Assembly (NCBI GenBank): GCA_026712605.1
Contig: JAPORL010000147.1
Coordinates: 1-5,397 of the forward strand
Direction: 5' to 3'
DNA: 5,397 nucleotides
DNA from: Pseudobdellovibrionaceae bacterium
Lineage (GTDB): Bacteria; Bdellovibrionota; Bdellovibrionia; Bdellovibrionales; UBA1609
The position numbers were made by a program, and so were the translations under genes. The notes under the pieces are model-generated. The model was not told the origin of the DNA, did no database searches, and was given only the letters and a program-made list of their open reading frames with translations. Shown here piece after piece: positions 621 through 5,397 of the stretch. Position 1 is the stretch's first letter; each line of letters starts with the position of its first letter.

Positions 621-1553
621 ATGAAATCTCATTTTTTTAATAAAAGCTTAAAGCTATTTAAAGAGTATAAAATTCAAAATAAAAAAATCATTATAGGGGT
701 TTCTGGGGGTTTGGATTCTATTGTTTTACTTGATCTTTTAAAAGAGTTGAGTTCGCCTTGTCAGTTAAAGCTTTATATTATTTATATTCACCATGGAGAT
801 AGTCATCAAAATAAAATTAAAAATTACAGAGATAAAGCTAAAAAGCTGGTTTTAAGTGTATCTCAAAAAAAGGAATTAGAATTTTTGAGTCCTAAAACAG
901 AAAACCAATTGTTAAAAAGTGAAGAAGAGTTTAGAAAACTTCGTCACACCCAATTTAAAAAAGCTTTAAAAAGCAAGCAGGCGGATATTATATCTTTGGC
1001 TCATAATCAACAGGATTTGCTGGAAACCAGATTGATTCAATTAATTAGAGGTTGTGGTCTTCAAGGTTTAGAGAGTATGTCTTACTATGACAATCTTTAT
1101 TTAAGGCCTTTAATTTTTTTTACAAGGAAACAAATTTATGATTATGCCCTTAAAGAAAAATTAAAATGGTTGGAAGACCCTTCTAACAAAGACAATAAGT
1201 TTTTAAGAAATTGGATAAGGAATAAGTGGCTAAAAGATTTAGAGAATAAAAGATTAGGAGCGGTTAAGACTTTATCTCGCTCTTTAGAGGTCTTAATTCC
1301 ACAAAAATATAATTTAGATATGGAGATCTATATAAATTCAAAAGGAATTAAGAGAAAATTTTTAATTGAGCTTTCTTTAAAAGATCAAAAAAGAGTATTA
1401 GCTTTTTATATGAGAAAATTTTTTTTAAGGGGGTATGGGCATTCTCACATAACAGAGATACTTAAGCATAATGAACGGGCAAAAAAAACTTTTTCTATTG
1501 AGCTTTTAAAGAAAACTTGGATTTTTACGAAAGATTATATTAAAATTAGATAG
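621..1553 (+). CDS. tilS: tRNA(Ile)-lysidine synthase TilS
   Basis: TilS uses ATP and lysine to convert C34 of the CAU-anticodon tRNA-Ile to lysidine, so that it reads AUA and is charged with isoleucine; it is cytoplasmic and normally essential. The 310-residue product carries the N-type PP-loop SGGLDS (residues 28-33), the following HHG segment (57-59), the family block AHNQQDLLETRLIQLIRG (127-144), RPL..TRKQI (162-172) and EDPSN...FLRNWIRN (185-201). The expected order and spacing are all present. The block at 127-136 is H-x-x-Q-D-x-x-E-T, where the family usually has H-x-x-D-D-x-x-E-T. At 310 residues it is a compact form, with only a short lysine-rich C-terminal region in place of the long substrate-binding domains of enterobacterial TilS. 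There is no clear Shine-Dalgarno before the ATG, and the codons are strongly A/T-biased, with several runs of seven or eight A or T. It follows dnaB by 22 bases. Confidence 0.95.
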   Translation: MKSHFFNKSLKLFKEYKIQNKKIIIGVSGGLDSIVLLDLLKELSSPCQLKLYIIYIHHGDSHQNKIKNYRDKAKKLVLSVSQKKELEFLSPKTENQLLKSEEEFRKLRHTQFKKALKSKQADIISLAHNQQDLLETRLIQLIRGCGLQGLESMSYYDNLYLRPLIFFTRKQIYDYALKEKLKWLEDPSNKDNKFLRNWIRNKWLKDLENKRLGAVKTLSRSLEVLIPQKYNLDMEIYINSKGIKRKFLIELSLKDQKRVLAFYMRKFFLRGYGHSHITEILKHNERAKKTFSIELLKKTWIFTKDYIKIR

Positions 1554-1639: not shown

Positions 1640-1760
1640 ATTAAAATATCCTAAATATAAGATTAAAAACTCAGACATGCGTTTTGCCACAAAGCGACCT
1701 ATGGTCGCTATGTGTTCAAATCCGAACTCGTTTTTAACCTTATATTTAGGATATTTTAAT
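1640..1760. repeat. 121-bp palindromic element with 31-bp inverted arms
   Basis: Arms 1640-1670 and 1730-1760 are reverse complements over 31 positions, except for one pair (A1662 against C1738). In a minus-strand transcript that pair would be a G-U wobble, making the stem continuous. Inside, 1688-1699 and 1703-1714 form a second 12-bp stem with one A-A mismatch and a TAT loop. Its centre is within one base of the centre of the outer arms, so the whole folds as one long interrupted hairpin. The unpaired stretches are 17 bases (1671-1687) and 15 bases (1715-1729). The arms are very AT-rich while the interior approaches half G+C, unlike the surroundings. No target-site duplication is visible at the ends and no transposase is present. 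It lies between the convergent tilS and acyl-CoA dehydrogenase genes. A palindromic dispersed repeat or MITE is the best reading; a two-way terminator is an alternative or additional role. The structure is directly seen; its mobility is inferred. Confidence 0.85.
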
Positions 1761-1832: not shown

Positions 1833-2987
1833 TTAAAAATTAAATAAATTTTCTTCTAAGATCGCACGAGATAAAATAACGGACATGATTTCATTTGTTC
1901 CTTCTAAAATTTGATGAACTCTGGCATCTCTCATAAGCCTTTCTAGAGGATAATCTTTTATGTAGCCATAGCCTCCATAAATTTGTATAGCCTCATTGCA
2001 AACATGAAAACAAGTGTCAGTAGCAAACTTTTTCGCCATAGCGCAGTAGTTAAGAGCTTGAGAGTCTTTTTGATCTAATTTAAAAGCCGCTAAACGAACC
2101 ATATAACGGCTAGTTGTTACTCCCGTTACCATATCAGCAATCTTAAATCTTAAAGCTTGAAATGAGCTTAAGCTTTTTCCAAATTGTTCTCTTTCTTTCA
2201 TGTATTGTTGAGAGTGATCCACAGCAGATTGAGCAGCGCCTACAGAACAAATAGCGATATTAATCCTTCCACCATTTAAACCCTTCATAGCAATTTTAAA
2301 TCCCTCTCCCTGTTTTCCTAATAAATGCTTTTCTGGAATTTTAACCTGATCTAAATTAACTATTTTTGTTGGTTGTGAGTTCCAACCCATTTTATCTTCA
2401 TTTTTTCCATAGGAAAGACCCTTAACATCATGAGGCACAACAAAACAAGAAATTCCTTTAGGGCCAGGCTCTCCTGTCCTCGCCATTACCACTAAAGTTT
2501 GAGTGGATCCAGCTCCTGACACAAAAGCTTTTGTTCCATTTAAAATCCATTCTCCTTGTTTTTTTTCTGCCGTAGCTTTTAAACCTGCCGCATCTGAGCC
2601 TGACCAAGGCTCAGTTAAGCAATAAGCTCCTAAATGCTCTCCACTGGCTAAACTGGGAACAAAGTTTTTTCTTAAAAAATCAGAGCCAAACTCATCTATC
2701 ATCCAAGCCACCATATTATGAATAGAAATATAAGCTGTTGTGGAAGGGCAGGCTTTTGCCAGCTCTTCAAAAATAAGAGTGGTGTCTAAGCGAGAGCAGG
2801 ATATACCCCCTACATCTTCTTTTAAATAGAGACCACAAAAACCCATTTGAGCGGATTTTTTAATAACTTCCACAGGAAAAATCTTTTTTTGATCCCACTC
2901 GCTCGCATGATCTTGCATTTCTTTAATAGCAAAATCTCTAGCAAGACTTTGAAATGATAATTGATCTTCTGATAAATTAAAATTCAT
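1833..2987 (-). CDS. Acyl-CoA dehydrogenase, probably isobutyryl-CoA dehydrogenase (valine catabolism)
   Basis: This FAD-dependent cytoplasmic dehydrogenase is expected to convert isobutyryl-CoA to methacrylyl-CoA, passing electrons to electron-transfer flavoprotein. Its 384 residues match the family's usual length. Visible landmarks are the FAD/substrate block YCLTEPWSGSDAAGLKATA (122-140), GWNSQPT (201-207), KEREQFGKSLSSFQALRFKIADM (264-286), and the C-terminal block GGYGYIKDYPLERLMRDARV (338-357). QILEGTNEIM (359-368) follows, with E362 as the probable catalytic base. The ILEG-[ST]-NE form and the pairing with mmsA favour isobutyryl-CoA dehydrogenase (ACAD8-like) over butyryl- or 2-methylbutyryl-CoA dehydrogenases, though substrate cannot be settled from sequence alone. 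It begins 9 bases after the mmsA stop with no obvious Shine-Dalgarno, suggesting translational coupling. It is the last gene of the operon before the convergent tilS. Confidence 0.9.
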   Translation of the reverse strand: MNFNLSEDQLSFQSLARDFAIKEMQDHASEWDQKKIFPVEVIKKSAQMGFCGLYLKEDVGGISCSRLDTTLIFEELAKACPSTTAYISIHNMVAWMIDEFGSDFLRKNFVPSLASGEHLGAYCLTEPWSGSDAAGLKATAEKKQGEWILNGTKAFVSGAGSTQTLVVMARTGEPGPKGISCFVVPHDVKGLSYGKNEDKMGWNSQPTKIVNLDQVKIPEKHLLGKQGEGFKIAMKGLNGGRINIAICSVGAAQSAVDHSQQYMKEREQFGKSLSSFQALRFKIADMVTGVTTSRYMVRLAAFKLDQKDSQALNYCAMAKKFATDTCFHVCNEAIQIYGGYGYIKDYPLERLMRDARVHQILEGTNEIMSVILSRAILEENLFNF

Positions 2988-5205: not shown

Positions 5206-5397
5206 CTACTCAGGGGTACAAGTATTAGAACTTTTTTCCCAGCTTCCATCTACACATCTGTAATTACATGATCCAGAATATCCACTAGAGCATGATCCAG
5301 ATCGTTTAAGACTTTTCTTAGCCGATAAACTGCAATTTTTTATTGTAGTTGCTTTGCAACTAAGGGCGCAAGTATTAGCATCGGTTCTAGCAACCAG
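5206..5397 (-). CDS. Cysteine-rich repeat-module protein, C-terminal fragment (5' end outside window)
   Basis: Reading leftwards from 5397, 63 codons are open to a TAG at 5208-5206; the frame runs off the window, so the gene's beginning is missing. The fragment is rich in Cys, Ser, Gly and Asn, with seven cysteines at fragment residues 10, 14, 22, 36, 44, 48 and 60. The core reads CSSGYSGSCNYRCVDGSW, and the fragment contains NTC both near its beginning (ANTC, 8-10) and near its end (SNTC, 57-60). This suggests one complete module of about 50 residues preceded by at least one more. The spacing C-x3-GY-x2-C-x3-C-x3-GxW-x-N-x-C recalls small disulfide-bonded extracellular domains such as sushi/EGF-like folds, so secretion or surface exposure is likely; no signal peptide can be checked. 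An 11-base direct repeat (5267-5277 and 5291-5301) encodes the duplicated SGSC. Function is not recognised. Confidence 0.7.
   Translation of the reverse strand: MVARTDANTCALSCKATTIKNCSLSAKKSLKRSGSCSSGYSGSCNYRCVDGSWEKSSNTCTPE

Follow-up and report, generated by a model that had tools for sequence, protein, structure and literature searches.

A dispersed palindromic repeat family with a conserved core and self-matching arms in Bdellovibrionales

A 121-bp palindrome lies at positions 1640-1760 of the window, the whole 5,397-nucleotide stretch of a Pseudobdellovibrionaceae bacterium contig that was analysed here, in the gap between tilS and an acyl-CoA dehydrogenase gene. The question that this locus raises is whether such a structure is a fixture of its intergenic region, as a terminator or a structural RNA would be, or one copy of a repeat found at many places, and, if so, how the two arms of each copy stay matched. 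We propose, with moderate confidence, that the palindrome belongs to a dispersed, probably non-autonomous (MITE-like) repeat, and that the copying of one arm from the other in a DNA hairpin is likely what keeps its arms matched.

The palindrome in the window

The outer palindrome consists of a left (5') arm at 1640..1670 and a right (3') arm at 1730..1760, given on the forward strand, which form an inverted repeat of 31-nt arms that are 97% complementary (30/31) at a spacing of 59 nt. Folded as RNA, the palindrome reaches -47.8 kcal/mol against -14.6 +/- 3.1 in 200 dinucleotide shuffles (z = -10.8), and none of the 200 shuffles is equally stable. A sequence-only reading of the window had described a nested palindrome with 30 of 31 arm positions paired and a symmetry far beyond chance, and both the inverted repeat and the fold confirm it. 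The second stem that it had placed on the same axis is present as an interrupted inner hairpin (1694-1699 with 1703-1708, extended outward by CACA/TGTG), and the interior is, as it had stated, richer in G+C, with 30 of 61 letters in the core at 1670-1730 and 3 of 30 in the left arm when counted by eye. AAAAA and TTTTT tracts lie on either side of this core.

The core (1670..1730, forward strand) is an asymmetric stretch of 61 nt with the consensus YTCRRACATGCGKTTTGCCACA...TCAAAKCCGAACTCR, and it is the near-constant part of the element: in an alignment of 53 copies from several genomes, 38 of its about 61 columns are invariant or at least 90% conserved, and in the arms only four columns reach 90%. 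Within the core, the copy alignment and pair count define an inner stem, P2, with its 5' side, GTTTTG, at 1681..1686 and its 3' side, CAAATC, at 1717..1722; fold, alignment and pair count together define an apical hairpin, P3, GCGACC-TAT-GGTCGC, at 1694..1708, all on the forward strand. The second pair of P2 is a recurrent wobble or mismatch across the repeat family, being U-G in 46 of 47 copies of the type found in carrier genome G001 and T-T in the window copy, and P3 differs among copies, with compensatory change in some. RNAalifold missed the arms when given a mixed alignment, as the arm register moves by one base among genomes.

The two neighbours are convergent. On the left, tilS occupies 621..1553 on the forward strand (TIGR02432, 148.6 bits, over the cut-off), and on the right the acyl-CoA dehydrogenase gene occupies 1833..2987 on the reverse strand (PF00441, PF02771 and PF02770, all over their cut-offs). 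No open reading frame of 60 or more residues crosses the window copy. An Rfam scan of the window up to E 1 returned two chance-level matches (E 0.04 and 0.07), both far under their gathering scores, the better of which (E 0.039), to an unrelated microRNA model, scores 27.8 bits where the gathering score is 130. A tRNA-like element was considered from the core reading GTTCAAATCC and rejected, since ARAGORN finds no tRNA in the window and the motif is, by eye, lost in relatives. Elsewhere in the window, the minus strand of 5206-5397 carries an open, cysteine-rich frame of 63 residues that runs off the contig end and has no family match.

Copies, arrays and empty sites

The genome that holds the window (G000) is a draft of 1.35 Mb in 251 contigs, 89.6% complete and with 5.93% contamination. 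It yields at least 67 blastn matches to the window copy (40 of 183 candidates scored), two of which are reverse-strand echoes. On 41 contigs (309,952 bases), picked because they bear copies, a profile HMM built from the core detects 121 cores in 74 clusters at E <= 0.001, some of the cores being partial. Thirty-nine clusters are single, 25 double and 9 triple, and one has five units; the units of a cluster lie on the same strand, save for two exceptions among the weakest core-HMM hits. Inside arrays, units retain core and right arm but have no matching left arm (for example on contigs L231, 4450-4777, and L255, 4481-5031), so that the arrays look like local tandem growth, which we infer to have started from one complete unit. 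Spacing within arrays is mostly about 128 or about 106 bp, that is, two array types in this genome. For 28 of the 74 clusters a contig end is no more than 150 bp away, which indicates that the assembly breaks there and that the true copy number is probably above our count.

Of the 47 genomes of the family, 7 have strong copies and 5 more have weak matches by a covariance model (12/47 at E <= 0.001; 73 candidates scored per genome). In the order-wide search (24 candidates scored per genome), 7 of 140 genomes, all of one family, have 14 or more matches. In another family of the order, genome G123 has a single core-like match at E 1.5e-7, which may be a distant relative or due to chance. Three genera are represented among the carriers, whose draft sizes are 1.35-2.0 Mb; all of these genomes are drafts, and the named ones are metagenome-derived. 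A pattern scan of a species collection finds at least 92 stretches and, among the matches listed, 80 of 80 come from six assemblies with the title Bdellovibrionales or Oligoflexia bacterium; these six separately deposited assemblies are probably six of the seven carriers. A blastn search of PLSDB and INPHARED at E <= 0.01, with the window copy as query, gave no match, and an exact pattern search of viral contigs gave none either. The bin prefixes RHO and APA we take to denote sponge samples, and the prefix IP30 may stand for Isopora palifera coral skeleton. One report mentions two Bdellovibrionia assemblies from the coral Isopora palifera (PMC9868349), and another describes two reduced Bdellovibrionota genomes from a glass sponge, possibly unrelated to the carriers (PMC9944714).

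If the repeat moves, related genomes should hold the same intergenic regions without it, and the sequence-only reading had proposed that such empty sites be sought. In G003, a non-carrier of the same genus, tilS (54% identical) and the acyl-CoA dehydrogenase gene (79%) are convergent neighbours too, and the element is absent: the gap measures 80 bp against 279 in the window. When neighbours are called by a longest-ORF rule, 44 clusters have both neighbours callable; in 11 of these both are matched in the examined G003 DNA, and in 7 of the 11 they are adjacent there. Five of the seven keep order and strand, representing five intergenic regions, and all five are empty, with gaps between aligned gene ends (own genome/G003) of 226/11, 587/209, 299/32, 405/28 and 279/80, two of the flanking neighbours in this comparison being only 32-33% identical. 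The other two clusters, both on contig L228, share a single region (857/88); there G003 has one of the neighbours in inverted orientation, and the region is not counted. The site of the 299-bp gap is also empty, at 5 bp, in the carrier G054, and the core HMM has no hit at E <= 10 over 718,669 bases of G003. A difference is also seen in the other direction, as the genes for aldehyde dehydrogenase and acyl-CoA dehydrogenase are 457 bp apart in carrier G002, with a copy between them, and 9 bp apart in the window. The earlier suggestion of a dispersed palindromic repeat or MITE family is hence supported by many copies that share core and architecture, by the strong matches in seven genomes and by orthologous empty sites that include the tilS/acyl-CoA dehydrogenase gap; a single copy fixed between these two genes in relatives, the outcome that would have spoken for a terminator or RNA, is not what was found.

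At the two cleanest single-unit sites and in the window the length difference is 199-267 bases, and it is about 380 with two triple units, indicating that the inserted piece exceeds the 121-bp palindrome. In G001 the outer flanks have a consensus, TTTATACCGATC..GTTTGAA.., that points toward the core on both sides, and it suggests a full unit near 230 bp, on a loose motif test: the inverted flank motif stands on both sides in 37 of 40 G001 copies under a permissive search that also accepts 33 of 80 flanks after shuffling and 35 of 80 when the direction is wrong. At G001 loci such as L045 and L162 the palindromes are flanked by a short repeat like TTTATACCGATCCGGTTTGAATTTT, which occurs elsewhere too, with 92 matches (at most 2 changes) in the examined G001 DNA, 36 of them in core flanks; possibly it is a second repeat family or marks the true ends of the element. 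Neither a target-site duplication nor exact ends were found, the empty sites of G003 being too diverged to place them.

Matching within copies and turnover between copies

To describe how the arms evolve, we compared the complementarity of each copy's left arm to its own right arm with that to the right arms of other copies in the same genome. The mean score is higher for a copy's own arms in all seven groups computed: 25.7 against 18.4 in G000 (46 of 66 copies with paired arms), 30.0 against 15.4 in G001 (43/47), 31.1 against 11.4 in G002 (7/7), 24.2 against 13.3 in G016 (13/16), 20.9 against 15.2 in G054 (10/11), 21.8 against 13.9 in G004 (8/9) and 28.6 against 13.3 among ungrouped copies (13/14). 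Counting ties, the left arm finds no better partner than its own right arm in 39 of 43 G001 copies; in G000 this holds for only 16 of 46. In G054 the two arms of one copy match less well (20.9) than left arms do between copies (22.8). Weaker arm matching in G000 indicates that the upkeep is not equally tight everywhere.

The covariation of the arms was assessed in a gapless alignment of 47 G001-like copies, chosen for their register, the length of their core and the pairing of at least 22 of 28 arm sites; 49 copies qualify, of which 2 are left out. In its outer helix 23 of 29 pairs are changed on both sides, and 98.8% of cells are paired, a figure that is partly conditioned by the selection on pairing; among 1363 cells, 2 are one-sided G-U and 16 unpaired. 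Over the whole structure there are 310 double-changed cells against 80.7 +/- 11.1 in shuffled alignments, with none of 500 shuffles as high, and the covariation score is 0.388 against 0.127. Further pair types show no excess over shuffles (53 vs 52.4). Shifting the partner by one column reduces pairing to 44-48%. Relative to the commonest pair, 286 outer-helix cells are changed on two sides, 160 by transition and 126 by transversion (a hand sum of cells, not of reconstructed events), and these 126 cannot be reached through a single G-U pair.

Two-sided change predominates even between the most similar copies of this type. Among 143 pairs formed by 53 G001-like copies that differ at 1-3 paired sites, 212 sites differ in both arms and 92 in one, where 19.5 two-arm differences would be expected if the arms changed independently. 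The picture differs in G000, where one-arm differences lead up to 10 sites, with one-arm/two-arm counts of 111/66, 793/487 and 1527/925 in the three lower bins. All of these copies are related and the pairs are not independent, so the counts are not independent tests.

Core and arms vary largely apart from each other. Distances between copies in one arm and in the other are strongly correlated (r 0.98), but arm distance correlates with core distance only weakly, though above zero (r 0.15, permutation p 0.016), and 11 pairs of copies with both arms identical (28 + 28 sites) have cores that differ at 1-7 of 61 letters. Such loose linkage fits gene conversion confined to the shared core. It was also observed in the alignment of 47 copies that copies of different arm type can have the same inner-hairpin variant (5 shared of 14 and 27 distinct), as though cores had been exchanged.

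Upkeep of the arms, rival explanations and known repeats

Two-sided change, scarce wobble intermediates and transversion-type swaps are together what is expected from the copying of arms in a DNA hairpin. Under this model, a strand would fold into a hairpin and a polymerase would copy one arm off the other, by template switching or quasipalindrome correction, so that a change in one arm would become a matched change in both in a single event and without a G-U intermediate. The core would be what the mover recognises, and gene conversion would swap core sequences between copies, leaving core and arm variants nearly unlinked. Template switching in a DNA hairpin has been described for RNA genes, where perfect hairpin arms can be regained or newly made in one event that changes both sides (PMC8794818); there it is a mutation mechanism in RNA genes, whereas here it would be the upkeep of a whole repeat family.

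Palindromes of this kind would probably persist in hosts without a recognisable SbcD, which is half of the hairpin nuclease SbcCD. SbcD passes the cut-off in none of the 47 family genomes, two of which have weak partial matches, and in 8 of 14 control genomes, 13 of which have some match; from SbcD, as distinct from SbcC, the hairpin-attacking nuclease is probably missing from the family of the repeat. Since carriers and non-carriers alike lack it, SbcD loss was rejected as a carrier-specific cause and offers a permissive background only. The mover itself was sought among two protein families. Six of the 7 carrier drafts lack Y1_Tnp, and the reverse transcriptase RVT_1 is absent from 2 of 7 carriers and present in the non-carrier G003; neither a RAYT nor a reverse transcriptase tracks the distribution of the repeat, both were rejected as its mover, and the Y1_Tnp and RVT_1 searches revealed no transposase tied to it. 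The broadest form of the model, in which self-repairing palindromes have their arms perpetually rewritten from each other and their conserved core swapped among copies, in hosts without a recognisable SbcD, we put forward tentatively, as somewhat short of an even chance.

The strongest rival is selection on an RNA fold: the element would be transcribed, mobility or a function in mRNA 3' regions would depend on its long stem, and the arms would be compensated stepwise. We judge it rather unlikely, yet a serious contender, as the strong covariation in the alignment of 47 copies is what it predicts and the mismatches have a direction: in core orientation, one-arm mismatches are more often A-C than G-U (36 vs 15 distinct genome-position-type events, p 0.0046), in all seven groups with data, as though G-U were favoured on the other strand. 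Counted per copy, there are 66 A-C and 24 G-U mismatches, with ties in G001 and G053. This bias fits selection on an opposite-strand RNA, or strand-biased mutation, better than neutral DNA correction. The excess per copy is 16 to 1 in G016 and 18 to 1 in G004 (8 to 1 and 9 to 3 under a stricter rule); in G004 the A-C mismatches fall, by eye, at recurring positions, and the strand asymmetry is unexplained.

Gene context bears on the same rival from both sides. Where the flanking genes are co-directional, the arm edge lies nearer the upstream stop (median 71 bp) than the next start (183 bp; n = 47, Wilcoxon p 7.6e-6), as an mRNA 3' function would have it; however, in 30 of these 47 contexts the mRNA reads the forward strand of the element, opposite to the strand that the mismatch bias points to. 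The 109 copies away from contig edges are also mixed in context, with 22 between convergent genes, 24 between divergent genes, 47 between co-directional genes and 16 inside open reading frames of at least 80 codons, most of which are probably spurious; of random positions, 4614 of 5384 fall inside such frames. Stepwise compensation is further opposed by the mere 2 one-sided G-U cells in the 1363 of the outer helix, in copies that were selected, and by how common transversion-type differences are. Hairpin-templated DNA copying therefore stands ahead of RNA-level selection, yet not beyond it, and a looser upkeep of the arms than strict correction may also apply, given the many one-arm changes in G000.

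Far less probable is that the arms derive from the target, the core inserting and an inverted copy of the flank being made each time, so that arms are new at each site. The seven G002 copies suit this, with left arms little alike among copies (12.1) and yet matched within each copy (31.1), as does the near absence of linkage between core and arm variants, but the arms share a recognisable consensus and subfamilies within G000, G001, G016 and G054, which argues that they are inherited with the element, and inspection by eye shows no long, nearly perfect hairpin in the G003 gaps, though these are too diverged to align. We give very little credence to inflation of the repeat by contamination or misassembled arrays, in spite of the draft state of G000 and its clusters at contig ends, since the same family recurs in seven genomes and in six separately deposited assemblies and its copies differ among themselves. 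Equally improbable is that the element is fixed between tilS and its convergent neighbour as a transcription terminator or a structural RNA. A bidirectional terminator would suit that position and the A and T tracts beside the core, but this reading is contradicted by copy number and empty orthologous gaps; 24 of the 109 copies lie between divergent genes, and the Rfam matches are at chance level. Single copies may nevertheless act as terminators.

The repeat as described has traits of a MITE, with many dispersed short copies that hold no gene and empty orthologous sites in five regions; its arms are long and central. REP and BIME elements are palindromes with an imperfect stem, clustered between genes. 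The present palindromes are likewise intergenic and clustered; however, the repeat is much longer, and given the absence of the Y1 family of RAYT from most carrier drafts a REP/RAYT route for it is unsupported. Rickettsia palindromic elements (RPE) are dispersed palindromic repeats some 150 bp long that often sit within genes without breaking the reading frame (PMC10969869). The likeness to them that the sequence-only reading had drawn holds, by description, in scale and in one in-frame copy within a gene; here the host is an unrelated bacterial group, most copies are intergenic (16 of 109 are in any open reading frame of at least 80 codons), and there are tandem arrays and arm turnover around a stable core. 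ERIC elements, according to excerpts of two sources, are intergenic, 127 bp long and predicted to form a single long stem-loop, with tens to hundreds of copies (PMC10969869, PMC2267715). Those and the YPAL elements of enterobacteria resemble the repeat, when compared by description only, as intergenic palindromes of similar size, placement and copy number, but they have other hosts, and the tandem arrays and arm turnover are found here. Hairpin-forming repetitive elements have also repeatedly invaded intergenic regions of mitochondrial genomes, as one excerpt has it (PMC2800124); those of sponge and fungal mtDNA are likewise hairpin-forming intergenic repeats, yet mitochondrial and structurally unlike one another, and the likeness is one of description. 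The palindromic repeat is like RPE and ERIC in size and placement, and works like a MITE-like repeat.

The literature searched offered no description of this repeat family, which is no proof of its absence in print; as far as that literature and Rfam show, both the family itself and the turnover of its arms under self-matching are new, and a repeat family is added to an uncultured lineage with small genomes. How long stems stay perfectly paired is an open question, to which one study gives template switching as the answer, on evidence for maintenance that it calls circumstantial (PMC8794818). In one genome group we have dozens of copies where, down to the most similar ones, changes in both arms outnumber changes in one and wobble intermediates are very scarce, and the question of stem maintenance hence becomes testable on natural data. 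If the broadest form of the model holds, quasipalindrome correction has left a natural record in these copies, spread over dozens to hundreds of loci.

One copy also offers a case of a repeat maintained in frame within a metabolic gene. On contig L117 it occupies 6302-6442, inside a gene (5130-7445) for a 771-residue protein like the alpha subunit of the fatty-acid-oxidation complex, and sits between the enoyl-CoA hydratase and 3-hydroxyacyl-CoA dehydrogenase domains. The peptide that it encodes is absent, by eye, from the other 14 of 15 aligned homologues, among which the length of this linker is variable in general, and is recognisable in P0003, a homologue that is 78% identical to the whole protein and known from its protein alone.
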